From Candidatus Sericytochromatia bacterium (GTDB taxonomy: Bacteria > Cyanobacteriota > Sericytochromatia > S15B-MN24 > JAQBPE01): DNA of 64,000 nt. Below, one piece after another: positions 37,876 to 57,803 of this stretch (the first letter of the stretch is position 1; every line of letters begins with the position of its first letter). The DNA lies in the NCBI GenBank assembly GCA_035285325.1, contig JAYKJB010000063.1, forward strand, positions 62,001-126,000. Direction: 5' to 3'. The notes under the pieces are model-generated. The model had not been told where the DNA came from. It did no database searches and worked only from the letters and a program-made list of their open reading frames with translations. The position numbers and the translations under genes were made by a program.

Positions 37876-38029
37876 CCGGTGTCGTGTTTTTGGATTGGCC
37901 GTCGAGATCTTGTGCTTGTTATTAAAATCACCATAGCCTCACTGCTGCACGTTGTTTTTTCTTTGCATGTTTTTAGAAGCATAGGGGCCTTGCTGTGAGG
38001 CGCTTGCAGGAATTGGATTGCTTGTCATG

Positions 38030-38076
38030 AAAAGCGAGCCCGTGTCTTTGACGCGGCCTCCCAGGAGCCGCTTTTT
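38030..38076 (+). ncRNA. Possible structured RNA or branched terminator
   Basis: An outer stem AAAAGC (38030-38035)/GCTTTT (38070-38075) encloses a 7-bp hairpin CCGTGTC (38040-38046)/GACGCGG (38050-38056) with one G-U pair, and a small CCT/AGG hairpin. It ends in five T residues (38072-38076). This could be the 3' end of a small RNA expressed from the AT-rich stretch, or just a terminator. No gene precedes it on this strand. Confidence 0.35.
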
Positions 38077-38373
38077 ATGTTCCACTGGTTTTCTCGGTTG
38101 GTTCCTTAGGATCAGCGTGGTGATTGGAATGAATGCCTCTGTGGGTGGCAACATGGGGCGTCCTTCGGAACGGTGGCGACGGCCTTAAGAAGTTCTTTTG
38201 GTCGTCTAATGGAGCCATTCTTGGGGAGCTGTGGCGTGCCAGAACAGAGGCCCCCCATCAGGGGCGCTACGGGGCTTGCGTGTCAAGTGAACGCGCTGTC
38301 TGGGTTTTAAGGATTTTATCCCAGTTGAAGTTGGATTATTTCGGTTCTCGAACGAGCCAGTGGCTGACCGGCT

Positions 38374-38751
38374 TCAGGTGGATTCCGGAGCGGCGTGGCT
38401 CTGCCAGAGTGTTCGGAGCTTGGCGACCAGCCACATCCGCTCGCTTTCAGGAAAATGGGGCGACTGCATGAGTTCGTCAAACATGCGATAGGTGTAGTCT
38501 TCCTCCCATCGCACGCTCGCCTTCAATTCCGCTTCGCCGAGCTCGCGAACCAATCCATCCAACCAGGCATAGGTGGTTTTGAGGCCGTTTGCCAGTTTCT
38601 GGAGCGTCGCAGGGCGAGGTGCCTTGATATCTCGACCCGATTCAATGCCTGCGATGGTGCCGATAGGCAGGTCGCATAGCTCTGCGAGGGCGCGCTGGCT
38701 GATACCCAGCTCGGCGCGTCGTGCGCGGATATACGCTTTCAGGTTGCTCAT
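38374..38751 (-). CDS. XRE-family transcriptional regulator
   Basis: A 125-residue DNA-binding protein. The helix-turn-helix spans about residues 5-60: LKAYIRARRAELGISQRALA, LCDLPIGTIAGIESGRDIKA and RPATLQKLANGLKTTYAWLD. The remaining ~60 residues are helical and may dimerise or bind an effector. ATG 38751 has AAGGAG 6 nt upstream. It is isolated, flanked by gene-poor DNA rich in GCTTGT words; one of these overlaps its own -10, suggesting autoregulation. Confidence 0.87.
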   Translation of the reverse strand: MSNLKAYIRARRAELGISQRALAELCDLPIGTIAGIESGRDIKAPRPATLQKLANGLKTTYAWLDGLVRELGEAELKASVRWEEDYTYRMFDELMQSPHFPESERMWLVAKLRTLWQSHAAPEST

Positions 38752-38779
38752 TTAAGTGCTCCTTCTCTCCTGTTGCTTT

Positions 38780-38785
38780 ATTATA
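38780..38785 (-). promoter_or_regulatory. -10 element of the XRE gene overlapping a GCTTGT site
   Basis: On the minus strand GCTTGTATAATAAAG contains a perfect TATAAT about 30 nt upstream of the ATG. The GCTTGT word abuts and overlaps it by one base. The -35 region is poor (about 3 of 6). Confidence 0.6.
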
Positions 38786-38882
38786 CAAGCAGGCCATTCG
38801 GGTGCGACAGGTCGAGCCGGCAAAGGGATGCTTGTCATTGCGTGCGAGTTCGGGTTTATTGCTCGCGTTTCGGCTCTGGAGA

Positions 38883-38894
38883 TTGTAGATACAA
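38883..38894. promoter_or_regulatory. Second TTGT-N4-ACAA dyad, possible operator
   Basis: TTGTAGATACAA is a perfect dyad like the one at 37864-37875. The 12-mer CAAGCGGAGTCA overlaps its right half (38892-38903). A weaker related site, TTGTCGAGAGAA, lies at 38946-38957. Confidence 0.45.
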
Positions 38895-39557
38895 GCGGAG
38901 TCAACTTTTGCATTCATGGGGTCGGGGCGTTCGAGGTTGAGATGCTTGTCGAGAGAAGTGTCCTGATTCCGTCCCCGGTCCAACTTGCTTGTCGAAGCAT
39001 GTAATTCTGTTTGGCCGTGTAAAGGTCGCACGGTGAGATTTTTAGGAAATTCGGGTGGGGTTTTTTATTGCGCTTCGCGCCTCGTTTCTCGATGAGGGAG
39101 GTGGGTGGGGGAGGCGTCTTAAGCTCGACGATGGGACGCTGAATGGGCTGTTCGGTGAGGGTTGCACCGCATTGCCGCCGCCAGTGGGTGGTCTTCGGTT
39201 CCTGGTTAACGCTTTGAGGTTGGATGGGGCGTCGGTGGTAATTAGTTGGTCTTCGGCGAGATTCAGGGCCGGAGTCGAGATTCTGATGCAGGTTTGGCAA
39301 ACTGGAGGGGGTTTCCTGACGTCGTTCTGCCCCGGTGGGGATTGCCCTCTCCTTGATGACTCTTGCTTTGACTGGCGCTCCGGGGCCACGAGTCCAGATG
39401 GTCCTGGTGGTTCCCTTGACGACAGGCGCGATTGCAGCGGTTTTGACGCCGTGGGGGCGGGGGCTGCTGGCGCTTTTTTGCCGGTCTGGGCGGTCACGGA
39501 GGAGGGGGGCGCGTGTTTGGTTCACTGCCCCCCATCAGTCTTATTTGGAGGTGTCGA

Positions 39558-39872
39558 ATGGCGGCAGCCTGTTATCAGGAATTTGCTGGCGGCGTGCGCT
39601 TGTTCGTCCGCCTGATTCCCCGTTCTTCCCAAACGCGGGTCGATCGGATGCGCGATGGGCGACTGTGCGTCCGAGTGGTGGCGCCGCCCGTGGAGGAGGC
39701 AGCGAATCAGGCGCTGATTGCTTGCATCGCGAACTGGTTGGACTGGCCCCGCCGGGATATCACGATCACGCGTGGTGGGCATTGTCGCGACAAGACCCTG
39801 GAGGTTCGGGGGCCTTCCCCTGAATTGCTCACCCGATTGGCGCGTTGCTTGGAGGCGGATTTCAGCCCGTGA
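39558..39872 (+). CDS. DUF167/YggU family protein
   Basis: A 104-residue protein of the YggU/DUF167 family, small alpha/beta proteins of unknown function often placed near proC or yggT. It shows the family pattern RLFVRLIPRSSQTRVDRMRD, DGRLCVRVVAPPVEEAANQA and the C-terminal RRDITITRGGHCRDKTLEVRG. ATG 39558 has a strong GGAGGTG just upstream. It overlaps the convergent lipoprotein gene by 11 nt. Confidence 0.85.
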   Translation: MAAACYQEFAGGVRLFVRLIPRSSQTRVDRMRDGRLCVRVVAPPVEEAANQALIACIANWLDWPRRDITITRGGHCRDKTLEVRGPSPELLTRLARCLEADFSP

Positions 39873-40665
39873 TCGTGAGCGTCTTTCGGAAGATTCGCAG
39901 GGCTTCCTGACCAGTCCCCGGATCCGCCTCACTGTAGACCAGGGTTCGCATGCGCATTCGGCCTGGCTGTGCGGGAAGTCTCAGGTATCCCGGATAGAGT
40001 CTCTGGGTGATGCGTGCGGACGCTTCTGTCAGGCGCTGCCCGTTGCGGTCATTGCCCCGGGCAAAATTTGACACACTCACCACGGACAAGTGGCCGTCAT
40101 TCATTTTCAGGCGAATGTCCGCCACATAGACCGTCGCGACCAGGTTTTGCGCCTTGACCGCCGCCACGGCGAAGGTGCTCTGGTCGGTCTCTGTCACCGT
40201 GATCTGGGCGGGTAGGCTCATTTTGGGAGGGGTTCCGATATCGAGTTGACCATCCCCGATGACCGAGCCGACCATCACGCGCGCGAAGTGAAATGACGCC
40301 CCTTCCAGCAGCAAGCGGACTTCTCGGACCTCTAACTCGCCTTTGGTCTGGTACAGGTCGATGCTGGTTTCGGGTGTTCCATTGGCCGGTAGGCTGTCGA
40401 AGATGGTGTTCACCTTCGGGGTGAAACGGGTGGGTGTGATCACGTCCTCAACCAGGCTGTCAAACGGGTTCGACGTGACCTCGGGAGAGGGTGGCGTCCC
40501 AGGGGAGATCGCGGGACGGGGCACGCCGGTTGGTTCGCGGTCGTCGTCGTTGAAGTCCGTGGCGCTCAAAGGAGGCGCACTGGCGTTCGGCAGTTCAGGC
40601 GCGCACGCTGTCACGCTCACCAACAGGCATCCCAACCAGGTCCATCGTGCTTGCTGAGGCTTCAC
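39862..40665 (-). CDS. Lipoprotein of unknown function
   Basis: A 267-residue protein with a lipoprotein signal ending VTAC (lipidated Cys near residue 21) and a ~50-residue Pro/Ser/Asp-rich spacer. The beta-rich body reads RFTPKVNTIFDSLPANGT, GELEVREVRLLLEGASFHFA and LVATVYVADIRLKMNDGHLS. I do not recognise a domain; the strand-rich pattern suggests an LolA- or LppX-like lipid-binding fold, unproven. It follows the larger lipoprotein gene by 9 nt, so both are co-transcribed. Confidence 0.7.
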   Translation of the reverse strand: MKPQQARWTWLGCLLVSVTACAPELPNASAPPLSATDFNDDDREPTGVPRPAISPGTPPSPEVTSNPFDSLVEDVITPTRFTPKVNTIFDSLPANGTPETSIDLYQTKGELEVREVRLLLEGASFHFARVMVGSVIGDGQLDIGTPPKMSLPAQITVTETDQSTFAVAAVKAQNLVATVYVADIRLKMNDGHLSVVSVSNFARGNDRNGQRLTEASARITQRLYPGYLRLPAQPGRMRMRTLVYSEADPGTGQEALRIFRKTLTITG

Positions 40666-40674
40666 GAGGCGTAC

Positions 40675-42354
40675 CTAAGGGGAAATCTGGATGTTCTCGC
40701 TGAATTCGACCAGACTGCCGCCTCGCGAGAAGATGTCGACATCCACGTTGGTGACAGGGGATAGGCGATTGGCCAGCAAGGTGGGCTGGTCAAGACTCAG
40801 GACACTTGGGAGGATCGTCATGGTGGTGGTGTGTCCCTGGTTGATGGTCACGGCATCGTTCAGCGTATAGCTGAGGACCACGAACACGTGTTCAGCTGTA
40901 TCGAATACTTGCACATCCGCAATCGGATGGCTGCTCGGGAGGTACTTCCACCTCCCCACGAACGCGGGACCAGACAGGCTTCCTCCCCCGAGGCGCTGGC
41001 TGAGGGGCCACGTCTGGGCGACTCCGCCCGCTTCGACCCGGTGCGTGCCGCTTGCGATCGGAGAACTGCTGGTGCCCTCCGCCAGAATGGCGGGCGGCGG
41101 TGTGAAAACAGCCCCGGTTCGGGCCTTGGAGAGCCTGGCGATGATCCGGAAAACGTCCTCCTGCCCCGCGGTCTGACTGACCGTCATTTGCAGCGATTGC
41201 GTGCCCGGCAGGTAACTGACGGTAAAGGTCGGATCGAATTCTGCAGGCTCTGGGCCCGGTGTGGGCGTTGGTGGAGCACTGCGGCGACTCGAGCCTCCCC
41301 CGCTGGACACCGAGTCCGTGGGGGTTGGCCTCGGAAAAGGCTCTAAAATCGGGATACTGGGCGTGGCAACCTCGTTCGGAAGGTCAAAGTTCAGGTTGAC
41401 CCCGTTTCCGGCGATGGAAATGACCGTGCCGGTGATCGTGATGTCGAAGCCCGCCGACGCCAGGACCCCGAGATCGTCCTGGGTCAGCCCGGTTTCGACG
41501 GAGGTGTCCAGGTTCCCACCATCTTGCTTCAGCGTGGAAAGCACCTGTAAGGATTCCGCCACTGTCTGTCGGAAGACTCGCCCCAGGCCCGCCTCGCCCA
41601 TCACCTCTGCCAGCAAGGCCGGCTGGATGGTCCCTTTGGCATCGACGACTTCAGACAGGGTATCCAGCTCGCTGGCGGTGAACGTTCTGGCGATCTGCCT
41701 GGCCAGGCTTTCTCCTTTGTTGAGGACCTCCAGGAACAGTTGACTCTCGGCGTCATCGGTCAAGGCTTGGGCGAGCGGGATCAGGTTCCTGACGCAGTTG
41801 TCAGCCAGTGTGGTGGCCGGGGTCAGCAGGAACTGAAAGCCCGTTTGCTTGCTGGGCAGGGATTCGTTGGCGGGGGTCGACAGGGACCTGAAGACCAAGG
41901 TTTCTTGGCGCCCCTGCTTCGCAGAAATGGTGGCGATCAGGGTGGTCACGCTGTACTTGCCGTCGCTCACCACCACCCGGTAGACGTCGCCTTTCCGTGG
42001 GACAGGCATGTGAAACGAGAAGCGGCCCTGAGCGTCGGTGCGAGGACCGGTCTGCGAGAGGCGATACTTTCCGGAGTCGAAGAAGCGAATCGGGATGGCC
42101 TGTCCCGTGGCCGCGTTGAAAACCCTGACTTCCGCGTTGGCCATCAGCCCGCGACCGTTTTCGGCGGTGCCAAACAGCACCTGCGAGAATCCTGGCGCCT
42201 GTGTTTGGGGGCCCCCGATCAGGCCAAACAGCAGGACGGGGCCCATCGGGCTGGGGTCGAACGGGGCGCAGGCCACCAGCGACACGGACAGGGCGGTGAG
42301 CGTGGGGAGCCACGCGTCACGCACGTCTTTGCCTCGAGGGCGCTGCGGGAACAT
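40675..42354 (-). CDS. Large surface lipoprotein with a carboxypeptidase-regulatory-like domain
   Basis: A 559-residue protein with a lipoprotein signal (LTALSVSLVAC). Residues ~60-150 resemble a carboxypeptidase-regulatory/Ig-like fold (ANAEVRVFNAATGQAIPIRF, TDAQGRFSFHMPVPRKGDVY). A helical middle follows (about 180-290), then a Ser/Pro-rich linker (SSGGGSSRRSAPPTPTPGPE) and a beta-rich C-terminal domain. Function unknown. GAGGAG lies 9 nt before the ATG. It heads a two-gene lipoprotein unit. Confidence 0.72.
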   Translation of the reverse strand: MFPQRPRGKDVRDAWLPTLTALSVSLVACAPFDPSPMGPVLLFGLIGGPQTQAPGFSQVLFGTAENGRGLMANAEVRVFNAATGQAIPIRFFDSGKYRLSQTGPRTDAQGRFSFHMPVPRKGDVYRVVVSDGKYSVTTLIATISAKQGRQETLVFRSLSTPANESLPSKQTGFQFLLTPATTLADNCVRNLIPLAQALTDDAESQLFLEVLNKGESLARQIARTFTASELDTLSEVVDAKGTIQPALLAEVMGEAGLGRVFRQTVAESLQVLSTLKQDGGNLDTSVETGLTQDDLGVLASAGFDITITGTVISIAGNGVNLNFDLPNEVATPSIPILEPFPRPTPTDSVSSGGGSSRRSAPPTPTPGPEPAEFDPTFTVSYLPGTQSLQMTVSQTAGQEDVFRIIARLSKARTGAVFTPPPAILAEGTSSSPIASGTHRVEAGGVAQTWPLSQRLGGGSLSGPAFVGRWKYLPSSHPIADVQVFDTAEHVFVVLSYTLNDAVTINQGHTTTMTILPSVLSLDQPTLLANRLSPVTNVDVDIFSRGGSLVEFSENIQISP

Positions 42355-42520
42355 GAACTATTACTCCTCGGCGAGAGCCACCGGGTGATCGGCTCCTTGT
42401 TGCCCACTCTGCCAGCAGGCCTAGCCACGCACAAGGGCTCCGGTCACAGGCCCCGTGCTGCTCAACAGGCCGTTCAGGAACCGGGATGGCTGCCCATCTT
42501 CCGTCCGGCTCCCAGCGACC

Positions 42521-43570
42521 TCAGCTCAGCGCAACGGGTTCGGTCTGAGGTTGTTTGACCGGCAGCTCGATCGTGAAGGTGGTGCCTCGGTTCACTTCAC
42601 TGCTCACGGTGATTTTGCCGTGATGGGCCTCAATGATGTCCTTCACGATGGACAGCCCCAGCCCGACGCCCCCCGTGACCCGTGAACGCGCCTTGTCTAC
42701 CCGGTAGAACCGCTCAAAAATTCTCGGCAGGTCGATGGGGGGGATACCGATCCCGCTGTCGATCACGCGGCAAAGCACCTCGGAACCTCCGGGCGCAACC
42801 CCGATGTCGAGCGTCACGGTCCCGCTGGCAGGGGTAAATTTGATGGCATTGTCGACCAGGTTGATCAGCACCTGCTGAAGGCGATCACGGTCAGCTTCGA
42901 TGGTGGGGACTTCTTCCGGACAGTTCACCAGCAGTGTCACGCTGGCCAGTTTGGCGTGATGCTGCAAGGTCGATTCGACCTGTTCGGAGAGGCTTTGCAG
43001 GTCAAAGGACGACATGTGCAAGACCGGTCGCCCCATCAGGTTGGCCACGGTCAGGAGCTCATTGACCAGGCGAGTCAGCCGGTCCGCTTCGCCTTGAATG
43101 TTGTTGAGAAATTTCGCACGCATTCGTTCATCGCGCATGGCACCCATCTGGAGCGACTCAGCCGCCATCCGGATCGCCGTCAGCGGGGTTCGCAATTCGT
43201 GGCTGACGTTGGCCACGAAGTCCTGCTGCATGGTTCCGAGCTTGTAAACGTCCGTCCAATCATGAACGCTGAGAATGGTTTCTTCGCCGCGTTGAATGGC
43301 ACTGACGGCCAGGGTGCGGTCCGGCCACCAATCCGGCCCCACCAGTTCGAGCAACGGGGCCTCTCCGTCGCGACGGGCGCGGGCAATCAGTTCCATCACC
43401 GCTGGTTCCGCCAACATCGCTTGGAGACGTGGACTTGCCTCCTCGGCGCGTACCTCCGACAGCGCCTGCAACAAACTTCGATTGTGTGCCAGCACCTGAT
43501 TGTCGGCGCCTAGCACCAGCAATCCGTCAAAGAGTTTGGGTTTGAGGGAAAATTCTTCTTTTTTTGACAC
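42521..43570 (-). CDS. Soluble PAS-containing sensor histidine kinase
   Basis: A 349-residue histidine kinase without transmembrane helices. A PAS-like region (about 10-110: FDGLLVLGADNQVLAHNRSL) precedes the HisKA helix with the phosphorylated His in FVANVSHELRTPLTAIRM near residue 122. The HATPase has N-box NLVDNAIKFTP, G1 VIDSGIGIPP, F FERFYRVD and G2 GGVGLGLSIV. It resembles PhoR-type kinases but is cytosolic. No response regulator is adjacent. It lies 9 nt after the pseudo-M20 gene in the same direction, so it ends the kinase operon. Confidence 0.9.
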   Translation of the reverse strand: MSKKEEFSLKPKLFDGLLVLGADNQVLAHNRSLLQALSEVRAEEASPRLQAMLAEPAVMELIARARRDGEAPLLELVGPDWWPDRTLAVSAIQRGEETILSVHDWTDVYKLGTMQQDFVANVSHELRTPLTAIRMAAESLQMGAMRDERMRAKFLNNIQGEADRLTRLVNELLTVANLMGRPVLHMSSFDLQSLSEQVESTLQHHAKLASVTLLVNCPEEVPTIEADRDRLQQVLINLVDNAIKFTPASGTVTLDIGVAPGGSEVLCRVIDSGIGIPPIDLPRIFERFYRVDKARSRVTGGVGLGLSIVKDIIEAHHGKITVSSEVNRGTTFTIELPVKQPQTEPVALS

Positions 43571-43579
43571 GGCAGTATC

Positions 43580-44821
43580 TCACCCGGCGATCGCGGCACC
43601 GATTGCCGCATACCCACTTACCGCAGCGATGAGACGATCGAGGCGTACGTGTTCGAACGGAGTTTCCGCAAATTTCTCATCACCAGGAGAATAGCCGAGC
43701 GTGACGATACGTTTCATCGTGGCCACATAGGCCGCGTCGCTCGGCAGTCGCCAGTACGTCTGCACGGGATTCTGGCCCACTTCCTGCAAGCCTCGCGCGA
43801 CCCGGTGAATCAGGGCGTGGCTTGCGTCGGTGAGAAACGGATGGGCCACACACGCCACGTCCTGTGATACGCCGGTGAAACTGGTCGCCGTGAGGCGACG
43901 AACCTGCAGATCGGCCGTGAAGGCCGTATCTTCCTGGGCGATGCGATTCACGATCGACTGGAGCTGCCACAGGGCGGCGTCCGTGCTTTCGCTGGGAAGG
44001 TAGCGGCGATCCAGACTGATGGTGCAGCGATCCGGGACCAATTGAGGGGCCTGTGGCGCACTGCGAATCGCCGTCACGGCCAGGGTCGAACGGTCCAGGT
44101 TGGGATGCGACGGCAGATTCGACGCCAACTCCTGGACCGCCGCGAGCACCGGCTGCATCGCCAGGATGGCGTGGCTGCCCAGCCAGGGAGCACCGGCGTG
44201 ACACACGCGGCCCACCGTCGTCAGCTCGACTTCCAATCGCCCGCGTTGCCCGAGGGCCAGGTTCAAACCCGTGGGTTGCCCCACCACGCACAGATCGAAC
44301 TGGATCCCCCGCTCAGGAAGCGTGCGGTCCACCAGGACGCGTGTCCCGATGTGAGCAAACACCTGGGTCTGCACGACGCCTGCCACGATCACGTCACCCC
44401 GCAGGCCACCCCGTTCGTGTTTGAGGATGCGTCCGGCCGTGAGCATCGCCGCCAGCGCTCCCTTGTTTTGACTCGCGCCACAGCCGTGAAGGGCCTCGTC
44501 GGTCAGTTGAGCGGCATAGGGAGGGTAGCGCCATTCCTCCGCGTGCAGGGGTTCGGCATGGTCCAAGGGGCAGAGAAACAGCACGGAGGGGCCGGTGCCG
44601 TCCCCCCGGATGCGCCCGACCACATTGCCGATTTCATCCTGAAACACCTCATCGTAACCGGCCTGAGTCAACGCTTCCAGGACGGACGCCGCCAAGTCGC
44701 CCTCATGACAAGCCGGGCTTGGAATGGCGATCCACGCCTGCGCCAGATGGAGCAGGGCCTCTCGGGACGCCTCGGCGTGTCGCTGGAAACCCGACGGATG
44801 GAATGGTTCGGTCGTTGGCAT
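43580..44821 (-). CDS. M20-family (YgeY-like) protein lacking its metal ligands
   Basis: A 413-residue homologue of M20 deacetylases/peptidases, closest in pattern to YgeY. The conserved framework is clear: VVGRIRGDGTGPSVLF, GQRGRLEVELTTVGRVCHAG, SHAILAMQPVLAAVQEL and DRCTISLDRRYLPSEST. The metal site is gone: the HxD motif reads PLD (His to Pro), GxxSDxxGG reads GASQNKGA (Asp to Gln), the catalytic EE pair is TQ in VVQTQV, EPT reads QPT, and the last His is Glu. Catalysis by the usual mechanism is not expected. ATG 44821 is used; further-upstream starts are possible. Confidence 0.8.
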   Translation of the reverse strand: MPTTEPFHPSGFQRHAEASREALLHLAQAWIAIPSPACHEGDLAASVLEALTQAGYDEVFQDEIGNVVGRIRGDGTGPSVLFLCPLDHAEPLHAEEWRYPPYAAQLTDEALHGCGASQNKGALAAMLTAGRILKHERGGLRGDVIVAGVVQTQVFAHIGTRVLVDRTLPERGIQFDLCVVGQPTGLNLALGQRGRLEVELTTVGRVCHAGAPWLGSHAILAMQPVLAAVQELASNLPSHPNLDRSTLAVTAIRSAPQAPQLVPDRCTISLDRRYLPSESTDAALWQLQSIVNRIAQEDTAFTADLQVRRLTATSFTGVSQDVACVAHPFLTDASHALIHRVARGLQEVGQNPVQTYWRLPSDAAYVATMKRIVTLGYSPGDEKFAETPFEHVRLDRLIAAVSGYAAIGAAIAG

Positions 44822-44927
44822 CGGAGGGACTTTCAAACAGGGAACAGGGCCGGGCGGGCAGCATGATAGCAGAAAGCCCTGGTTCCCCATCGGGGGGCGG
44901 AACCTGAAGGAAATCAGAGGTTGGGTT

Positions 44928-45992
44928 TCAAAACCGCTTGAAGGTTTGGGTCATCGCCGCGATGAAGGCTTGATTTTCCTGCTCGCTTCCGACGAAGACT
45001 CGAATGCAATTTCGTAGCGGGGGACGGGCAAACGTCTGAGTGGCGATGCCGTGTTTCAGAAGCGCGGCGGCCAGTTCATCCCCAGGCAGCGTGGTCCCCA
45101 CCAGCAGGTAGGGGGCCGCGCTTGGCCAACTGACGACCCCGTCCAGCTGACTGAGGGCCGCGCGGATGGTTTCCCGTGCCTGGCACATGGCTCGGAAGTC
45201 ATATCCCAGTTCGTCGGTTTCTTCCAGGACCCATCGGACGGCCAGTTCTGCCGGTAAATTGAGGCCGTTTGCGCCGGGCACGCGGCCACACACGGCGACC
45301 ACGCGGGGGCAACCGAGGATCCAGCTGGCTTCGAACGCGGCGGCCCCGGTTTCTGCTCCCAAACCCTGGATGACGACCAGATTTTCCACCTCAGGGATGG
45401 CATCGGCCACGGAAAAGCCGCTCCAGATGGCCAACCGTTCGTCCACCACCACCAACGCCTCCGTTTCCCTGGCCAGGGTCAGGATCTCATCCCGCGTGAT
45501 CAGCCCACCGCTGGGCTCCGCTGGGTTGCTCAAGGCCACGACACCCGCTTGGTGGGCGCGTGCCGCTGCGATGACCTGACCGAGGGGGAACGAGAAGTCT
45601 GCCCCGGTCATCACCGCGATCGCCTGAATCTCCAGCGCCCGCGCGACTTGCGCGTACAACGGGTTGGTGGGGACAGGATAGAGCAACGGATGCTGCCAAC
45701 CCCAAGCGGTCAGGACGGCACTCCACGCGCCTGCCTGACAATTGGCCAGCGCCACGCTATCGGCGGCCAGCCCCCACCGATTTCCGATGGTGGCACGCAG
45801 GCTCTCCGCCCCGCTGGCCGGAAGGTGCCAGGGCGATTCCGAGAACTGGGTCCACCAGCGCTGTTTGGTTCTCCCATTCCAGTCGACGGGCCCCCGGGGA
45901 AGCTGGAGGGGAATCGGCGCAGCCGGCGGTGTGGCCACCAGGGGCGAACCATCGAGCAGGTCCAAGCGTTGCAATCGGTCGAGCTTGCTCAC
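44928..45992 (-). CDS. Class I/II aminotransferase-fold protein lacking the PLP lysine
   Basis: A 354-residue protein aligning with histidinol-phosphate-type aminotransferases (fold type I). Recognisable blocks are VALANCQAGAWSAVLTAWGW, LSNPAEPSGGLITRDEIL (for NPNNPTG), LVVVDERLAIWSG (for VVDEAY) and the C-terminal CIRVFVGSEQEN with the carboxylate-binding Arg. The Schiff-base block, normally TLSKAFGLAGLR, reads GLGAETGAAAFEA, with Ala (codon GCA) at the Lys position, so PLP chemistry should be lost. The GTG start overlaps the stop of the giant kinase (GTGA), so the two are translationally coupled. Confidence 0.8.
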   Translation of the reverse strand: MSKLDRLQRLDLLDGSPLVATPPAAPIPLQLPRGPVDWNGRTKQRWWTQFSESPWHLPASGAESLRATIGNRWGLAADSVALANCQAGAWSAVLTAWGWQHPLLYPVPTNPLYAQVARALEIQAIAVMTGADFSFPLGQVIAAARAHQAGVVALSNPAEPSGGLITRDEILTLARETEALVVVDERLAIWSGFSVADAIPEVENLVVIQGLGAETGAAAFEASWILGCPRVVAVCGRVPGANGLNLPAELAVRWVLEETDELGYDFRAMCQARETIRAALSQLDGVVSWPSAAPYLLVGTTLPGDELAAALLKHGIATQTFARPPLRNCIRVFVGSEQENQAFIAAMTQTFKRF

Positions 45993-48900
45993 AGGTTGGC
46001 CTGGCTGGCCGACGGGTGCTGCCAGCAAACGATGGCGGGTTTCCCCTGGCGTTGCGCTTGGCGCATGGCCCGCTGGGCTTTGTCGAACATGGGCGCCGAA
46101 CTGGCATCCTCGGCCAGAAAATCGGCCAGGCCGAATGATGCGCTGACGGTGATCGGGGGGAGCGAAGGGGAAATCTCGATCTGGAGGGCGCTGATGGCTG
46201 TCTGGAGTCTGAGCGCCAGGGCCTCCAGGGCGGTCGCCCGGGTGTCCGGACAGAGGACGGCGAAGGTGGTGTCGTCCCAACGAGCAGGGGTGTCCATGGC
46301 CCGACACGCCGCCGCCAGGGCGCAGCCAACGGCCCTCAGGACGGCATCGCTGCCCGCCTGCCCCCAATTCTGATGGGGCGGCGTCAGGGGGGCGAGTTCG
46401 CAGGTCAGCACGCTCAGGGGGCGCTGATAGCGGCGGGCAATCTGACATTCCCGTTCCGCCACTTCCTCCAGGAACCGGCGATTGCGCAAACCGGTCAGGT
46501 GACACGTGCCGGCGTCGAAATCGACCCTTCGATACTGCGCGATCACGCGTTCCAGTTCGGCGGCGCGCCTGGTTTTCTCTTCAAAAAGACGGGCGTTTCG
46601 GATGGCCACGGCGGTGTGGGCGGCGATCGCCTCGACCACGCTGAGGTCGCTGGGCATGAAGGGCGACAACTGCGCCTGGCTATCGAGGTAAAGTGCGCCC
46701 AGGGTTTCTCCTTGGGTCAGCAGGGGCACGCAAAGAACGCTGCGAAGATTGAGCCCCGCGATCGAGGCGCGTGCGAGGAGTTGTTCGTCCGTGCCGATGT
46801 CCGCGATCGACAGCACCTCACCGCTAGTCAGGGCCTGCTGCAGCAACGACGCCGAATAGCTTGGCTCGATGAGGGGGCGTGCCTCGCTGTCGAAGGCCGC
46901 CATCAGATCGGGGGGGCGCGCGTCATCCTCGGCCTTGAGAAACAACAGGCCACGTTGCGCTTGGGTGAGTTCCAGGGCCAGTTTGGTGCTGTGCTCCAGC
47001 ACGCTGGTCAGGGACAGCGAGTCGTTGATTTGACGCGCGAGCGCGTTGAGGCGTTCGAGTTGATGCGTCTGACGCGTCCATTCTTGAAACAGGCGTTCGT
47101 ATTGGATGGAGATGCCCTGAAGGTCGCGGTGAAGGCCTTGCAGATGGGTGAACGTCGCTTCTTCCGATGCCGAGAAATGTTCCCGAGTCGGAGCCTCGCG
47201 ACCCGTTGACTCCAGGATTTCGAGAATTTCCGGATGGGCACTCAATGCCCTGCGTAGATCGGGGGATTGGTTCTCGCAGAGCGCATTGAGGAGCGACTGG
47301 GCCCGCTGCAGCGCCGCTTGCCTTTCCTCGGGCTTGGCCAACGTCCGAAACAGGCCAAACTCCGCGCGAGCCTGATAGCGCGGGGCGCCCATCTCGGTCG
47401 CCAGTTCGCGGGCCAGCGTAAAGTGCTCGGCCGCCGTGGCCATTTGTCCATCTACTCGCAAGGCCTCGGCCACGGTCAAGTGACCGAGCAAGGGGTATAG
47501 CACCCCACCCAGTTGGCGCAGGGCTTCAAGGTCGGGCGGCGGTGTCAAAGGACGATCCGGTTCTCCCTTGGCCTGGAGTTCCGCATGCTGAAGGGCGGCG
47601 CGCGCCACCAAGCAAGGTGCTCCCAAACGTTCGGCGCCACGCAGGGCTCGCTGCGTCAGGTGTAGGGCTTCGCTCCATTGTCCCTGGCTGCGCTGCCAGA
47701 GCGCCGTCACGAGGAGCAGCCGGATCCGATTTTCGCTGTCATCGTCCGACGGGATCAGCGGTTCCAATTGTGCGATCAGAGGGGCCGCCTGGACCGCCTG
47801 CTCAGCCAGCAGCAGGGTTTCAGCCACATAGAGTCCTGCCAACGTAAACGTGTAGCTTTGCTCCGGCTGCACCTGAGCGAGGGCGCGATGAGCTTGTGAC
47901 TGGGCCGCGTCGAGTTGTCCCTGAACGGCCCGCACAAGGCCCAGCAGGGCGCAGGCAATCGGGGCCGCGATCACGTGCTGATGGGCGGTGGCGACCTCCA
48001 GACAGGCCGACGCCCTGCTCGCGGCGTCCTCCAGACGACCCAGTTCCCAGTTGGCGATCGCCTGATTCAGCAGGCCGACGATGTAATCATCGACGGCGCG
48101 AATTTCCCGCGCCAGTTCGCAACCTTTGCGGCACGTGGCCTCTGCCTCGAGCAGGCGGCCATGGAGCAGCTGTACCTCGAAGGCCAGATTCAAACTGTAG
48201 ACGAGGCCGCTCTTGTCGCCTTGTGCCTCCTGAATGGCGATCGCCTCGTTCAGGAGCGACCGTCCCTCGTCTCGACTTTCCACCGCCTGGCTTGCGCGCA
48301 GGTAGCCGAGGAAAGAGGCTGCGGTGGCCTGGTAACCGGGCCAACCGAGTTCGCGTGCGCTGGTCCTGGCCTCTGAAAAGATGGCCTGCGCTTCTTCGAG
48401 ACGTCCGAGAAAAAACAGCGCGCGGCCCCGATTGATGTCGGCACGCAGCCCGGTGCTGTGGCGGTCCAACGTTCTGGCGAGGGAACTGGCCTGCTGCTGG
48501 TAGGTCAGGGCCAGCTCGGAATTCCCATTCAGGGAGTGATACTTGCCGGTGGTGACCAGCAGTTCCAGTTCTCGATGTGGGTCCAGTCTGGAGGCGGTTT
48601 CCGCTTCGGCCCATTCGATATGCTGCTTGGCCCGTGGGAGGTCGTGACGCCAATGAAGGCACGTGGCCATCAGGTTGTGGGCGTCAAACCGCAGATGGGG
48701 ATCCATCGGCAATTGAGGGCCCTCAGGCAGGGCCGCGATGACCCGCTCAAGCAGGTCTTCGGCCGCTTCCAGCGCCAGCACCGCCAGGTGGCCCTCCGCT
48801 GCGAGCAAGCCCCAGCGGGCTGCCCGGGCGTCAAGAGGACCCCGGACGTGGTGATGGGCCAGCAGGGCGATGTCACCGAGGGCCAACTGTGCAGACACGG

Positions 48901-50869
48901 CCTTCTGAAGCGCTTGCCCCGTCAGACCCTGGAGTTCGGGGGCGATCAAGGGTTCAAGTTGGCGAGCGATCTCGGCGTGACCGGCTTGTCTGCGCTCGGC
49001 TGGGATGCGCTCATAAAGGCTGCGTTGCAACGTGACGGCGCTCAATTCGTAGAGGTTTTCCCGCTGGTCCAGCCACCCGGCGCGACGCAGAGATTCCACG
49101 GCGTCCAGCAGATCCTGGTCAGACAGTTCGAGACATCGGCGGGCCGTGGCCAGCGAGAACGGACCTGCCACCAAGGCGGCGAATTCGGCGAGTTGAGCTT
49201 CTGCGGCCGTGAGAGTCGGCAGGCGGTCCAGCCAGCTGTCGGTGGCGAGCGCGGGCCAGGTCACGTCGTGCAGCAGGTGAGGGAGTTCCCAGACATGGCC
49301 CTTTCGAACTATCACCCCGGTTTCGACCAGTTTCTGGAGGCTCACGATCACGGCGGCGGGGTTTCCGCCGGCGTGACGACTCAGCGTCTCTGCGAAACCT
49401 GCAGAGACGCTGTCCAGTCCGAGTACCCCTCCAATCAGGGCACGGCAGTCCTCGACTTCCAGACTCCTCAGCGGAAGCGTGCGGAACGTTTCCAGGGGGG
49501 GCTCGCGGGAGCTTCCCAGGACCAGCAACGGCAGCTCACTGGTCTCCTGACACAAGCGCTCCAGCAGCGCCCGGGAGGAACCGTCCAGGTGTTGCATGTC
49601 CTCGACCAGACATAAGCAAGGGGCCTGGGCCACCAGCAGGTGCATGGCTTTGATGATGGCCGCTTCGAGTGCCACCCTGGCGGCGTCCGGCTCCAGCCGC
49701 GGTATAGGGGTTTTGGGTCGCAGTTCCGGAAGCAGGGCGCTCAGGGGCGCCTGGATGCCCGAGAGCTCTCCCGAGGCTCCGGACTGGAGCACGGGTAAGG
49801 CTTGCCGCAGCCACGCCGTGAAAATGGCATAAGGAGGCTGATCGCTGCGTGCGCGTGTCGACAAGCAAAGCTGTCCGGCGATCATCGCCTGGACCCGCAC
49901 GTCCTCCAGAAGGCGCGTTTTTCCCGTGCCTGCCTCTCCTTGCAGGGCAAGTGCCTGGCCTTGTCGTTTCGTGGTGAGATCAGCCACGGCGTCCATCAGT
50001 TGATGGATTTCGCTTCTTCGTCCCACCAGGGGCGGGGAGAAAAGCGGCAGGGCCGCTTCCTGGCCACTGGTCATTCCCAGACTATCGAGCACGGCCTCGA
50101 CTGAAGCGAAGCGCTGGCCTGGGTTTTTAGCCAACATTCGATCGATGGCTCGGGCCAGTGCGGGGGGCGCATGCGGCGCGCGCTCAGCCAGGGGCGGCGC
50201 AGCTTCGGACAGATGGGCTTTCAGCAGGGCAAGAGGCGAATCGCCTCGGAATGGCAGCTCTCCGACGGTGAACTGGAAAAGCAAGATGGCCAGGGAATAC
50301 TGGTCGGCGCGGGCGTCGATCGGTCCCAGGCGGGCCGTTTCGGGTGCGAGGTAGGCCAGCGTCCCGCGCACGGCTGGTAAAACCTGCCCAGAATGACCCA
50401 TCAGGCCAAAATCCATCAATTTCAGGACGCCATCCCGCGTCAGGCGAAGATTTTCCGGCTTCAAGTCCAGGTGCACCAGGCCCTGCTGGTGCACGTAAGA
50501 CAGCGCCGCGCCCAGCTGGCGCAGTAGAGGGGCGATCTCCTCCGCGGAGAGCGGCAAGGTGGCTTCGTCCAGTCCCTGACCGTCGATGTATTCCATCGTC
50601 AGGTAGGGCCGTCCGTCAGGCAGGGTGCCGTAATCGTAGGTCTGACAGATGTTGGGATGACTCAGGCGGGCGATCGCGCGATATTCCTGCTGAAAGCGCA
50701 GCCGGTGCTCTTCGGCATCCACGGCGTTGGCGAGTTCCTGGTTCAGGGCTTTCAGGGCCACTTCGGCACCGTTGGCCTGGTCATGCACCAGGTAGACGGT
50801 GCCCATCCCGCCTCGACCAAGTTCACGAATCAGGCGAAACCTCGTGCCGAGGTCGATCGCATCCTGCAC
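45989..50869 (-). CDS. Giant Ser/Thr kinase - AAA ATPase - TPR - GAF - degenerate GGDEF protein
   Basis: About 1626 residues. The kinase domain (about 1-260) has the loop LGRGGMGTVYLV, VALK, the catalytic loop VHLDLKPEN (Arg of HRD replaced by Leu) and DFG. A PknK-like ATPase (about 285-560) has Walker A GEAGTGKT near 311. A long helical TPR-like array (about 570-1230) leads to a GAF domain (about 1275-1440) and a C-terminal GGDEF-like domain starting TGLRNRRFLEE. Its active loop is RWDDTTF instead of RYGGDEF, so cyclase activity is unlikely. GTG 50869 fits the AAAGGG upstream; GTG 50878 is possible. No transmembrane segment. It heads the four-gene pseudoenzyme operon. Confidence 0.88.
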   Translation of the reverse strand: MQDAIDLGTRFRLIRELGRGGMGTVYLVHDQANGAEVALKALNQELANAVDAEEHRLRFQQEYRAIARLSHPNICQTYDYGTLPDGRPYLTMEYIDGQGLDEATLPLSAEEIAPLLRQLGAALSYVHQQGLVHLDLKPENLRLTRDGVLKLMDFGLMGHSGQVLPAVRGTLAYLAPETARLGPIDARADQYSLAILLFQFTVGELPFRGDSPLALLKAHLSEAAPPLAERAPHAPPALARAIDRMLAKNPGQRFASVEAVLDSLGMTSGQEAALPLFSPPLVGRRSEIHQLMDAVADLTTKRQGQALALQGEAGTGKTRLLEDVRVQAMIAGQLCLSTRARSDQPPYAIFTAWLRQALPVLQSGASGELSGIQAPLSALLPELRPKTPIPRLEPDAARVALEAAIIKAMHLLVAQAPCLCLVEDMQHLDGSSRALLERLCQETSELPLLVLGSSREPPLETFRTLPLRSLEVEDCRALIGGVLGLDSVSAGFAETLSRHAGGNPAAVIVSLQKLVETGVIVRKGHVWELPHLLHDVTWPALATDSWLDRLPTLTAAEAQLAEFAALVAGPFSLATARRCLELSDQDLLDAVESLRRAGWLDQRENLYELSAVTLQRSLYERIPAERRQAGHAEIARQLEPLIAPELQGLTGQALQKAVSAQLALGDIALLAHHHVRGPLDARAARWGLLAAEGHLAVLALEAAEDLLERVIAALPEGPQLPMDPHLRFDAHNLMATCLHWRHDLPRAKQHIEWAEAETASRLDPHRELELLVTTGKYHSLNGNSELALTYQQQASSLARTLDRHSTGLRADINRGRALFFLGRLEEAQAIFSEARTSARELGWPGYQATAASFLGYLRASQAVESRDEGRSLLNEAIAIQEAQGDKSGLVYSLNLAFEVQLLHGRLLEAEATCRKGCELAREIRAVDDYIVGLLNQAIANWELGRLEDAASRASACLEVATAHQHVIAAPIACALLGLVRAVQGQLDAAQSQAHRALAQVQPEQSYTFTLAGLYVAETLLLAEQAVQAAPLIAQLEPLIPSDDDSENRIRLLLVTALWQRSQGQWSEALHLTQRALRGAERLGAPCLVARAALQHAELQAKGEPDRPLTPPPDLEALRQLGGVLYPLLGHLTVAEALRVDGQMATAAEHFTLARELATEMGAPRYQARAEFGLFRTLAKPEERQAALQRAQSLLNALCENQSPDLRRALSAHPEILEILESTGREAPTREHFSASEEATFTHLQGLHRDLQGISIQYERLFQEWTRQTHQLERLNALARQINDSLSLTSVLEHSTKLALELTQAQRGLLFLKAEDDARPPDLMAAFDSEARPLIEPSYSASLLQQALTSGEVLSIADIGTDEQLLARASIAGLNLRSVLCVPLLTQGETLGALYLDSQAQLSPFMPSDLSVVEAIAAHTAVAIRNARLFEEKTRRAAELERVIAQYRRVDFDAGTCHLTGLRNRRFLEEVAERECQIARRYQRPLSVLTCELAPLTPPHQNWGQAGSDAVLRAVGCALAAACRAMDTPARWDDTTFAVLCPDTRATALEALALRLQTAISALQIEISPSLPPITVSASFGLADFLAEDASSAPMFDKAQRAMRQAQRQGKPAIVCWQHPSASQANL

Positions 50870-50941
50870 GTGCAGCACCCTTTACCCGAACGTCCCCGCT
50901 CCGGGACGCCCCTTGTATACCCCGCGGCCCAGGCACCAAAA

Positions 50942-50967
50942 AAACCCCCGCCCGAGGGCGGGGGTTT
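50942..50967 (-). terminator. Intrinsic terminator of pepA
   Basis: AAACCCCCGCCC (50942-50953) and GGGCGGGGGTTT (50956-50967) form a 12-bp stem with a two-base apex (effectively a small loop). On the minus strand the stem runs into seven T residues, just past the pepA stop. Confidence 0.9.
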
Positions 50968-50979
50968 GGACCGGTTGAA

Positions 50980-52497
50980 TCAGAGCGTCGGCCAGTTCTC
51001 CAGCGTATCCAGAACCGCCCGAATGGGCGTTCCCGTGGGGCCTTTGGGGCGGTAGGGGCGCTCCTTTTCCGTCCAGGCGGTGCCCGCGATGTCCAGGTGG
51101 ACCCAGGGGGTTTCTCCCACGAACCGTTGGAGGAAACAGGCCGCCGTGATCGTGCCTGCTTCGCGGCCACCAATGTTCTTCATGTCGGCGATATCCGAGC
51201 GCAACAACTCGTTGTATTCCTTCCACAAAGGCAGCTGCCAGCCGCGATCGCCGGTTTTTTCCCCCGACTGTAGCAGTTGGTTGATCAGCCCCTGATGGTT
51301 GCCCAGCACACCGACGGCCTCGGTCCCCAGCGCCACCACGCAGGCGCCGGTCAGGGTCGCCATGTCGATGATGGCTGCCGCTTGCTTGTCCTTGACGGCA
51401 TAGGTCAGGGCATCACACAGGATCAGACGGCCTTCCGCGTCGGTGTTGAGCACCTCCACCGTCAGGCCCTGGTAGGAGGTGAAGACGTCACCCGGTTTCA
51501 GGGCGGTGGCGCTGGGCATGTTGTCGGTGGCGGGGACCAGGCCCACCAGGTTTTTCCGGATGCCGAGACGGGCGGCGCCGAGCATGATGGCGATCGCCGC
51601 CGCACCACCGGCCATGTCGTATTTCATCTTTTCCATGCCCTCGCCCGGTTTCAGCGAAATGCCGCCGGTGTCGAAGGTGACTCCCTTGCCGACAATCGCG
51701 ATGGGCTTCTCGTCAGGCGCTCCGCCCCGGTACTCCATCACGATGAACTTCGGGGGATGCTCGCTGCCCTGGTTGACGGCCAGAATGCCGCCCATCTTCA
51801 TCGCTTCCAGATCCGCTTTCTCGTAAATTTTCACGGCAATGCCCGCCGCTTCGCAGGCTTGCCGGGCATCCTCGGCCATGCGAGTGGCCGTGGCCACGTT
51901 GCTCGGGTGCATAATCAGGGTGCGTGCGAAGCGGATCGCATCCGCCAGGATGCTTCCCCGACTGACGCCTGCTTCAATCTCCTCGCTGGGACCGGTGCTC
52001 CAGATGGTCACGGCGTCGACCGTCTTGATCTCATCCAGGTCGCGGGTGCGGTAGTCATTCATCTGAAACAGGGCCAGCAAGGCCCCCTCGGTGACGGCCT
52101 GAGCCACTTCCTGACGTCCGGCGGGTTTGGCTGGTGCCCAGCCGCGTGGCGCGTCTTCGGTCAGGGCCAGGGTGACCGACTTCACGTTCACGTCCCGCAG
52201 GGTCGTGACGCCTTTCCCGGCAGCCTGACGAATGGTTTCCAGCGTCGCGTCACCCGACTTGCCCAGTCCCACCAGCACCACCCGCTTGATCGGGGTGCTC
52301 GGACTGTGCAGCAGCACGGTCTGATTGGCTTTGCCCTTGAAGTCACCCGCCGCCAGGACGGCCGCCAGCAAGCCTCCCACGCGCGCATCGATGGCCTGCG
52401 CGGTATCAGTAAGCTGGGTTTCTCCTTCGTAAAGTCCCACCACCAGGCCTTCCGCCTGGAGGTCTTGGACTGGACATGACTGGGCGCGTGCGTTCAT
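50980..52497 (-). CDS. pepA: Leucyl aminopeptidase (M17)
   Basis: A 505-residue cytosolic hexameric-type aminopeptidase. Metal and catalytic residues appear in order: VGKGVTFDTGGISLKPG (Lys, Asp), MKYDMAGGAAAIA (Lys, Asp) and the signature NTDAEGRLILCDAL (Asp, Glu, Arg). The N-terminal macro-like domain (about 1-170) is present. The ATG follows GAGG by about 9 nt. A strong terminator follows. Confidence 0.97.
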   Translation of the reverse strand: MNARAQSCPVQDLQAEGLVVGLYEGETQLTDTAQAIDARVGGLLAAVLAAGDFKGKANQTVLLHSPSTPIKRVVLVGLGKSGDATLETIRQAAGKGVTTLRDVNVKSVTLALTEDAPRGWAPAKPAGRQEVAQAVTEGALLALFQMNDYRTRDLDEIKTVDAVTIWSTGPSEEIEAGVSRGSILADAIRFARTLIMHPSNVATATRMAEDARQACEAAGIAVKIYEKADLEAMKMGGILAVNQGSEHPPKFIVMEYRGGAPDEKPIAIVGKGVTFDTGGISLKPGEGMEKMKYDMAGGAAAIAIMLGAARLGIRKNLVGLVPATDNMPSATALKPGDVFTSYQGLTVEVLNTDAEGRLILCDALTYAVKDKQAAAIIDMATLTGACVVALGTEAVGVLGNHQGLINQLLQSGEKTGDRGWQLPLWKEYNELLRSDIADMKNIGGREAGTITAACFLQRFVGETPWVHLDIAGTAWTEKERPYRPKGPTGTPIRAVLDTLENWPTL

Positions 52498-52530
52498 GGA
52501 GTGAGGCCTCTTTCGTCAGAACTTGCGAGA

Positions 52531-53142
52531 TCAGTTGAAGAACGGGTTGTGGGAGCGTTCCTGTCCCACGGTGGTGCTTGGCCCGTGTCCGGGATAGAGC
52601 ACCGTGTGGTCGGGAAGCGAGAAAATGTGGGTTTCGATGGAGGCTTTCAGCGTTTCCCAGGAGCCGCCCCACAGGTCGGTGCGCCCCACGCTGCCGGCAA
52701 AAATGGTATCGCCCACGAACATCTCGTCGTCGATTCGATACGACACGCCCCCTGGAGAGTGCCCAGGGGTCAGCACCGCCTCGATCACGGTGTCACCCAG
52801 CGGCAGGGCTTGGCCGCCATCGAGCAAGTGGTCGATGCGAGGCGCGACCATCGGGGGCATCCCGAACAGGCTGCACTGCAACGGCAATTGTTCCAACAAG
52901 CGAACCTCGTCGCGAGGCACGTAGAGAGGAATGCCAAAGCGTGCCTGAAGCTCAGCGGCCGCTCCGACGTGGTCGAGGTGGGCGTGCGTCAGCAGAATGT
53001 AGCGAGGCTTGGCGCCTTCGGCTTCGATGGCTGCGATCAGGCGATCGGCCTCTTCGCCAGGGTCCACCACGGCCAGATCGTCGCCGCGACGGATGAGGTA
53101 ACAATTCTCTTGAAACGGGCCGACGGTGAGGATACGCACCAT
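52531..53142 (-). CDS. Metallo-beta-lactamase-fold hydrolase (glyoxalase II-like)
   Basis: A 203-residue zinc hydrolase with THAHLDHVG (HxHxDH), GHSPGGVSY (His), FVGDTIFAGSVGR (bridging Asp) and LYPGHGPSTTVG (last His). The size and the GSVGRTDL segment match the YcbL/GloB2 group of glyoxalase II-like thioester hydrolases. It starts MVRILTVGPFQENCYLIR, a very typical N-terminus. It lies 33 nt upstream of pepA in the same direction. Confidence 0.92.
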   Translation of the reverse strand: MVRILTVGPFQENCYLIRRGDDLAVVDPGEEADRLIAAIEAEGAKPRYILLTHAHLDHVGAAAELQARFGIPLYVPRDEVRLLEQLPLQCSLFGMPPMVAPRIDHLLDGGQALPLGDTVIEAVLTPGHSPGGVSYRIDDEMFVGDTIFAGSVGRTDLWGGSWETLKASIETHIFSLPDHTVLYPGHGPSTTVGQERSHNPFFN

Positions 53143-53181
53143 CCTCCCAATTTACCTGGCATCCGGCGTTTTGACCAGGCT

Positions 53182-53700
53182 TCAGAGGCGTATGAAGCGG
53201 TAGTGCGCTTCCGGGAGGGCCACCGCATCCGGTTCGAACCAGTCCTCGAGTTTGTCGAATATCAGCAGGCACAGTTTTTTGGTTGTGTAGCGGTAGTGGA
53301 TCCGTCGCTTCACGCGTTGGAGCAGCGCGTCACAGGCGGCCTGGAATTCGGCCACATTGGCTGGTCCCACCGCCATTTCCTGCACCCAGCACACCTGGTC
53401 CGCGTCGCTGTGGCGCAGCACGTACTCAAGCTTGTCGAGGGGCAGGTCGCCCACCTGAACCCACAGCCGGACCTCCCCGGTCAGGTCGAGGCAGGCCAGG
53501 CTGGGGGTCACCTTGTAATCCGTCGCAGGGTCGAAGGTCAGCTCACCCTGTTCTCGCCAGAACGCGTAGGCAAGGGCCTTGAGATAGGCTTGATGGGTGC
53601 TTTCGCCTCGATGCTTGAACAGATGCAGCGGAGTGGCTTCGCCTTGAAAGTGAAACCGCAGCTGTCGCTGGCCGGTCAGGTCTTCTCGCACTGGAGTCAT
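53182..53700 (-). CDS. YaeQ-like protein
   Basis: A 172-residue protein resembling YaeQ, a small family with a PD-(D/E)XK nuclease-like fold and no settled function. The matching stretch runs YLKALAYAFWREQGELTFDP, then SLACLDLTGEVRLWVQVGDL, where YaeQ has the similar LTGxIELWIxxG block with its acidic residue. A C-terminal extension RRIHYRYTTKKLCLLIFDKL is specific to this protein. ATG 53700 was chosen; an in-frame start at 53778 lacks a better ribosome site. It lies between the DUF3326 gene and the glyoxalase II-like gene. Confidence 0.65.
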   Translation of the reverse strand: MTPVREDLTGQRQLRFHFQGEATPLHLFKHRGESTHQAYLKALAYAFWREQGELTFDPATDYKVTPSLACLDLTGEVRLWVQVGDLPLDKLEYVLRHSDADQVCWVQEMAVGPANVAEFQAACDALLQRVKRRIHYRYTTKKLCLLIFDKLEDWFEPDAVALPEAHYRFIRL

Positions 53701-53774
53701 GGAGAGGAGCCCTTCCTTGATGCGTGTCACCCGGGTGCCGGGATGATAGCACGCCAAGGTGTCCGGCCTGTTTT

Positions 53775-54893
53775 TCAATCGTCACAAATCGATTGTGACA
53801 TCGCGCACGGGGTGGGCCGGTGTAAGGGGGGTGACAGACGCTGTAGGGCGGGCATCGGGCGCCGGGCCGTGCGCGCATCGAGACCCAGGCGCCAGGCGGC
53901 CAGCAGGCCAGCGGCCTCCCAGTAGGAGCGCACCGGCCAGACTCCCTCGGCAGGGCCCAAACCGAGGCGTGCCGGCGTGACCTCGAGCAGCGTGGTGTTT
54001 TCCTCCACCACCACCAGGGGAATGCCGCGATCCAGGCCGGCGAGCGCCCCCGGTCCTCCCAGACATCCTTGCGGCAGGACGATCGCATCGGCCGCTGCCG
54101 GCCCCAGGTCGCCCGGGCGGGGCGGTGCTTCCGGCGCGAGCAGCTCGGGATGTTTTGCCAACCCCATGAGGATGCAAGGCAGGAACGTGTGGCCCAGGTG
54201 CTCGGCGGCTGCGCGCGGGTCGACAGCGACCGGGAGGCTTGGGGCATATGGCCAGAGCGGGGCGTGTGCAGCCGGTACCCCGAGCGTTTCGACCAGCAGG
54301 TGCGAGATGATCGCTTCCAGGCCCCCGATGGGGTCGACCCCCTGCCCCTGGTCATAGGCCTCGGCCGCGGTGGGGTCCAGCGGGCCGAGATCGGCCACCA
54401 CGGCGATCGCCTCGGCACCGCTGGCCATCAACGCGCGGGCGCCATCCAGCAAGGCATCCGGGTCCTGCAGGCTTCCCTCGCTCAGGCCGGAAGTCGCCAC
54501 ACTGGTGCGAGCACCGAGAGGACGTGGGGTCAGCTCCCAGCCCAGGATCGGCACGCCGTGGACGCTTCGCACCGCGTCCACGGCGTGGATCAAGACGTCC
54601 AGACTTCCCGCGGGCATGTGTTCGACGGCCCGATCGATCAGCAGTCCGATGCGCCTGCTTTTCACTGGTCTGAGCGCCCGTCTTCCTGCCAGCCAGCTGT
54701 CCAGCGCAGCACCTTCCAGGTACAGGGCATTGGCTGGAAGGGCCAGCAACTGTGCGCCGTTCACCGCATTGGGGTGCGTGACCAGGCAGTCCACCACGCT
54801 GGCCAGTAACTTGGTGGCGGGGCCGCCATCGCCCGCGAATCCACCAATGGCGGCTCCGACACCGGTGGGAATCAGGTGGACGGCTGTGAACAC
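53775..54893 (-). CDS. DUF3326 protein
   Basis: A 372-residue protein of the DUF3326 family, which I know mainly from cyanobacteria and which has no settled function. Recognisable blocks are LIPTGVGAAIGGFAGDGGPA, THPNAVNGAQLLALPANALY, RRIGLLIDRAVE and AIVLPQGCLGGPGALA. It reads as a soluble Rossmann-like protein with an acidic VVVEENTTLLEV near residue 300. GTG 54893 has AAGGAG 7 nt upstream. It overlaps the 61-residue ORF by 22 nt, so it is the last gene of the fur-feoAB unit. Confidence 0.85.
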   Translation of the reverse strand: MFTAVHLIPTGVGAAIGGFAGDGGPATKLLASVVDCLVTHPNAVNGAQLLALPANALYLEGAALDSWLAGRRALRPVKSRRIGLLIDRAVEHMPAGSLDVLIHAVDAVRSVHGVPILGWELTPRPLGARTSVATSGLSEGSLQDPDALLDGARALMASGAEAIAVVADLGPLDPTAAEAYDQGQGVDPIGGLEAIISHLLVETLGVPAAHAPLWPYAPSLPVAVDPRAAAEHLGHTFLPCILMGLAKHPELLAPEAPPRPGDLGPAAADAIVLPQGCLGGPGALAGLDRGIPLVVVEENTTLLEVTPARLGLGPAEGVWPVRSYWEAAGLLAAWRLGLDARTARRPMPALQRLSPPLHRPTPCAMSQSICDD

Positions 54894-57118: not shown

Positions 57119-57339
57119 GGCTGGGCGAACTCTACGTGAATGTCCTCGGCAAGCTGGCGTCCAATGGCAATTTCCTGGCGGGCTTTCCCCAGCACCACGG
57201 GGCCCCTGGGAATGATGGCGCGACACACGGCCACCTCGCCGACGCCAATGCCAAGTCTCAGGGCCTGGGTGCGGACCTCAAGGGCCGGAATGGCCAGGAT
57301 GCGGACGCGATCGCCCGGACGAATCTCGGCGAGGGTCAT
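57115..57339 (-). CDS. feoA: Ferrous iron transport protein FeoA
   Basis: A 74-residue SH3-like protein that assists FeoB. It starts MTLAEIRPGDRVRILAI and continues QALRLGIGVGEVAVCRAIIP and GPVVLGKARQEIAIGRQLAE, the standard FeoA pattern with a central LGIGVG turn. ATG 57339 overlaps the fur stop (ATGA), and its own stop overlaps feoB, so fur-feoA-feoB is a tightly coupled unit. Confidence 0.93.
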   Translation of the reverse strand: MTLAEIRPGDRVRILAIPALEVRTQALRLGIGVGEVAVCRAIIPRGPVVLGKARQEIAIGRQLAEDIHVEFAQP

Positions 57340-57794: not shown

Positions 57795-57803
57795 GGGAAA
57801 CTC

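Follow-up and report, generated by a model that had tools for sequence, protein, structure and literature searches.

What does a protein of the M20 fold do once every residue that bound its metal has been replaced, and why does its gene lie directly in front of a histidine kinase gene? Both questions are raised by a locus in the window, by which we mean the whole stretch of 64,000 nucleotides analysed from a Candidatus Sericytochromatia bacterium. The Sericytochromatia are non-photosynthetic Cyanobacteriota. The reading frame is unbroken from its ATG at 44821 to its stop at 43580, and its 413-residue product belongs to the M20 fold family, matching PF01546 (Peptidase_M20) with 55.3 bits (curated cut-off 24.6) and PF07687 (M20_dimer) with 50.8 bits (curated cut-off 21). 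The AlphaFold2 model, built with 41 homologues (pLDDT 95.5, pTM 0.92), has the two-domain M20 fold, and Foldseek matches it to DapE/ArgE structures with E values of 1e-35 to 1e-26; the best PDB match is DapE, with TM scores of 0.80 to 7uoi and 0.78 to product-bound DapE 5vo3. Given that the rmsd is 3.4 to 5vo3 versus 6.0 to 3ic1, the zinc-bound H. influenzae DapE without product, the better fit suggests that the protein has been modelled in a closed form.

The nearest named family is YgeY, which acts in the reductive uric acid pathway of E. coli, where this M20 enzyme releases the 3-ureido group of albizziin (PMC12507026). The two share the M20 architecture, and the YgeY model NF009555 is the best-scoring NCBIfam model. 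However, its 255.6 bits fall below the cut-off of 321, TIGR03526 likewise scores 193.8 against 321.5 (both curated cut-offs for the YgeY selenium-metabolism-linked hydrolase), the metal site is gone, and separate YgeY-like genes with intact sites are found in four genomes (L023-L026 in G002, G005, G007 and G008). With DapE and ArgE, the M20 desuccinylase and deacetylase, the protein shares the fold and the columns of the dimer-domain His and the substrate Arg, whereas the metal ligands and the general base are missing; a separate, intact DapE-like gene (L002) is carried by the same genome. Ordinary YgeY or DapE function is ruled out by the cut-offs and the absent ligands.

In the alignment every exchange listed in the first-pass annotation is present (HxD to PLD, SDxxGG to SQNKGA, EE to TQ, EPT to QPT and the last His to Glu), and the active-site row reads P85, D87, Q118, T152, Q153, Q182, E386 (Table 1). 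That annotation described all metal ligands as replaced. The five ligands are indeed gone, but the first Glu of EE, E152, is the general base and not a ligand; with the base also replaced, D87 of the HxD motif is the sole survivor of the active site. Neither the H, D, E, D/E, H ligand set of an active M20 metallohydrolase nor its catalytic Glu is found, and judging from these residues canonical metal-dependent M20 hydrolase activity is very unlikely.

Table 1. Positions of the genes, domains and residues discussed, numbered within the window.
Feature	Position	Strand	Basis or remark
Soluble PhoR/PnpS-like histidine kinase	42521..43570	(-)	profile matches; starts 9 nt after M20 stop
M20/YgeY-like pseudo-hydrolase, 413 aa	43580..44821	(-)	ORF, Pfam/NCBIfam, AlphaFold model, Foldseek to DapE
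E386, in place of last ligand His	43664..43666	(-)	alignment
R272 R273, kept; column of DapE substrate-binding Arg258	44003..44008	(-)	role PMC10815964
H208, kept; column of DapE His194	44198..44200	(-)	structural/sequence columns; role PMC10815964
Q182, in place of ligand Glu/Asp (EPT > QPT)	44276..44278	(-)	alignment
T152 Q153, in place of catalytic Glu and ligand Glu	44363..44368	(-)	alignment
Q118, in place of bridging Asp (SDxKG > SQNKG)	44468..44470	(-)	alignment
P85, in place of metal ligand His (HxD > PLD)	44567..44569	(-)	alignment
HisC-type aminotransferase fold without PLP lysine	44928..45992	(-)	GTG start overlaps upstream stop (GTGA)
Ala in place of PLP lysine (SK > GA)	45354..45356	(-)	alignment
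Ser/Thr kinase-AAA-TPR-GAF-GGDEF protein, 1629 aa	45989..50878	(-)	
Degenerate GGDEF domain (RWDDTTF)	46028..46504	(-)	sister genome G001 has RYGGEEF

Of the columns that 29 outgroup rows conserve to at least 90%, the window protein keeps 1 of 7 in the active site and 30 of 37 in the framework (Fisher p=0.0014); the losses therefore concentrate on the active site and are not a chance pattern. CHAGAP, with H208, and SLDRR, with R272 and R273, are retained. In DapE, His194 supplies the oxyanion hole from the other subunit and Arg258 binds substrate (PMC10815964). The claim that the framework is well kept thus stands for most of its columns and for both motifs, yet the nearly invariant N217, T361 and G363 are altered (N217H, T361S, G363A), three of the seven positions at which the protein departs from a residue invariant in the 11 other members of its clade, and its branch is long. 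At H157, H217 and H391 it has gained histidines where relatives conserve G, N and R.

How was the site lost? In searches of whole genomes and of GTDB contigs the gene falls into a clade of 12 members from 12 genomes of one Cyanobacteriota class; those with names are Candidatus Sericytochromatia, Candidatus Tanganyikabacteria, UBA8530 and RYN_339. The clade forms a single branch (support 93/88), and its sister, L053 from a Bacillota MAG, is intact. The site is partly lost in 11 of the 12 members, while the complete set (H, D, D, E, E, E/D, H) is found in 56 of the 61 relatives, out of 66 outside the clade, that cover every site. Within the clade the loss is graded: L008 is intact; L009-L011 have lost the base alone; L013, L016 and L017 have lost the bridging Asp as well as the base; in L014 and L015 the last His has gone too, which leaves three of five ligands; L012 retains the base together with two Asp residues, the bridging one and that of HxD; and L007 retains only H85 and D87. 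The substitutes at the lost sites vary between lineages, and the tree asks for at least four changes at E1 (one of them outside the clade), three at the last His and two at each other site. As reconstructed on this tree, the losses are repeated events and not a single inherited one; one ancestral loss for the whole clade is ruled out, as L008 is intact, L012 keeps the Glu and losses recur. One orthologous group thus holds intermediates that run from an intact site through loss of the base alone and then of single ligands to no site at all, and the sequence of steps by which a pseudoenzyme arises becomes directly testable through living intermediates. Apart from these, an M20 match (L137, G163:C59) that is intact over its extent occurs in one small f9 genome, the other listed f9 genomes having no match; it is possibly contamination.

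The partly stripped forms are held by purifying selection. The cleanest evidence comes from L014 and L015, two members of one genus: although both are without the base, the bridging Asp and the last His, they differ with dN 0.043, dS 0.42 and a dN/dS of about 0.10. dN/dS among orthologues had been proposed as a check in the first-pass annotation, and for this pair it indicates purifying selection; for the window protein against its sister the ratio is 0.29, with dS near saturation. On the tree the M20 branch of the window measures 1.07 versus 0.25 for the sister, about fourfold, whereas for the neighbouring histidine kinase the values are 0.18 and 0.25. The acceleration is therefore specific to the window M20 gene, and it is compatible with changed function and relaxed constraint alike. 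Together with N217H, T361S and G363A, this fast, gene-specific evolution makes it less convincing that the protein still binds the ancestral substrate.

The strongest functional clue, which the first-pass annotation missed, is the histidine kinase gene directly downstream. Every one of the ten genomes from the window's order has it immediately 3' of the M20 gene, and the junction sequences show an overlap between the two genes in seven of them. The kinase resembles PhoR and PnpS in its HisKA and HATPase domains and conserved H, N and G boxes, and it scores best with the PnpS and PhoR models, both below their cut-offs. It differs from them in that no membrane segment is seen in its sequence and that, in the order, its regulator is unlinked and the M20 gene takes that place. 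In all eight class genomes outside the order (families f5-f7) the orthologous kinase follows a PhoB-like regulator. The order genomes carry a regulator 76-81% identical to it, but located elsewhere, and beside it no histidine kinase was recognised in the six order genomes inspected. The kinase gene has thus parted from its regulator and now comes after the M20 gene. Outside the order, two genomes (L038, L041) have the M20 gene, but there it does not adjoin the kinase; on L041 (6738-12053, genome G015) a TPR protein and a Ser/Thr kinase come after the heavily stripped L012 gene, in place of the histidine kinase. L008, whose site is intact, also precedes the kinase, and so pairing does not need the dead form. 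In a Chloroflexota contig (Ardenticatenales, L072 18-2600) an M20 gene with an intact site has a GAF-like histidine kinase just downstream; we do not treat this adjacency as a homologous pairing.

Given that the site is lost while the fold is retained, that partly stripped relatives are under selection and that the pairing with the kinase is conserved, we give about even weight to the reading that a non-catalytic M20 fold has been kept inside the cell as a regulatory partner for the soluble histidine kinase whose gene comes directly after its own. The pseudo-hydrolase would form the usual M20 dimer, which may close over a small amino-acid-like or N-acyl/ureido-type ligand by means of H208 and R272/R273; in the window lineage the dimer might instead act by contact alone. 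Its state would be passed on to the kinase and alter phosphorylation, and the kinase would presumably act on the now unlinked PhoB-like regulator. In this way a two-component kinase may have recruited the fold of a metabolic enzyme as its input, in a little-known class that is sister to the photosynthetic Cyanobacteria. Other metallopeptidase families have known pseudopeptidases, which likewise retain the enzyme fold, have lost catalysis and serve regulatory roles (PMC11266112). Here, unlike there, the loss concerns M20, is graded across one bacterial class and is tied to a histidine kinase gene. We found no M20 pseudopeptidase in the text of that review, and no M20 pseudoenzyme linked to a kinase in the literature searched, most subscription journals lying outside its scope.

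Is the window protein a working partner, or the product of a gene on its way out? Decay of the whole block in the window lineage is the main rival, though on balance we regard it as somewhat unlikely: the GGDEF end, the aminotransferase gene and the M20 gene would together be losing function, the open frame being a stage on the way to a pseudogene, and the kinase would be selected independently. The upstream genes speak in its favour. The pattern around the PLP lysine (SKxxxxxGLRxG) is absent from the aminotransferase (GAETGAAAFEAS), whose model is HisC-like (pLDDT 85.7); the lysine is replaced by Ala in the window and by His in G001, and kept in the other homologues aligned over the site. In the window aminotransferase NPNNPTG is also missing its second N and LRxGY its R; G001 retains both. 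With the degenerate GGDEF domain and the M20 protein, three neighbouring catalytic domains of the window are without active sites, and dN/dS against G001 is 0.42 for the aminotransferase and 0.64 for the GAF-GGDEF end, to which the fourfold M20 branch may be added. Against decay, all frames are open; the GTGA stop/start overlap with the aminotransferase gene, seen in both the window and G001, and the gene order are conserved despite wide protein divergence; the M20 ratio of 0.29, even with dS near saturation, the M20 fold predicted at high confidence, and the retention of 71 of the 81 columns invariant in nine clade members point the same way; and partial loss of the M20 site also occurs in order genomes without the upstream aminotransferase and kinase genes. 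The first-pass annotation had argued for selection on binding rather than decay. The site-focused loss and the selection on L014 and L015 agree with it, but for the window protein such a conclusion cannot be drawn, because its branch is accelerated, conserved pocket-side residues have changed and two upstream catalytic domains are degenerate.

The same neighbourhood allows a broader form of the regulatory-partner reading. The Ser/Thr kinase-AAA-TPR-GAF-GGDEF gene is common to the window and G001, with AAA, GAF and GGDEF over their cut-offs in both. Histidine biosynthesis is ruled out as the context of the aminotransferase, the HisB-type dehydratase PF00475 being absent from 17 of the 18 class genomes. 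It is conceivable, if doubtful, that the block is a signalling operon of dead metabolic enzymes, in which the M20 pseudo-hydrolase and the lysine-less HisC-type aminotransferase would serve as intracellular metabolite receptors feeding the Ser/Thr kinase and the soluble PhoR-type histidine kinase, the linked response regulator having been exchanged for the pseudo-hydrolase.

Less probable still is that the M20 dimer is a pure scaffold, which binds no small ligand and bridges the histidine kinase, or stabilises it, through protein contacts. The tight coupling of the two genes would suit such a scaffold, as would the fact that changes in the window protein hit pocket-side residues besides the ligands; however, the substrate-site columns of H208 and R272/R273 are retained, and several clade members keep most of their metal ligands, for which a scaffold has no need. 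We think it highly improbable that the protein is an altered but active enzyme, with a rebuilt metal site, which the first-pass annotation had named as a refuting outcome, or a metal-free chemistry that would use D87, E386, H157, H217 and H391: the three gained histidines and the graded ligand loss elsewhere in the clade would be in keeping with it, yet the complete ligand set is absent and position 152 offers no base. An artefact of metagenome assembly, by misassembly or chimera, is scarcely credible, for although the draft genome is in 138 contigs, this contig spans 128 kb, the frames are open and G001 carries the same gene block with 36-74% protein identity, which rules out an artefact of a single genome.

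The wider surroundings add minor observations. No Rfam family was found in 38000-54000 and no sigma-70-like promoter in 42300-46300, results that are uninformative either way. The region 55271-57806 (-), which lies about 10-13 kb upstream of M20, encodes feoB together with a regulator of the Fur family, and in several f3 and f4 genomes a Fur gene comes directly after the M20-kinase pair.
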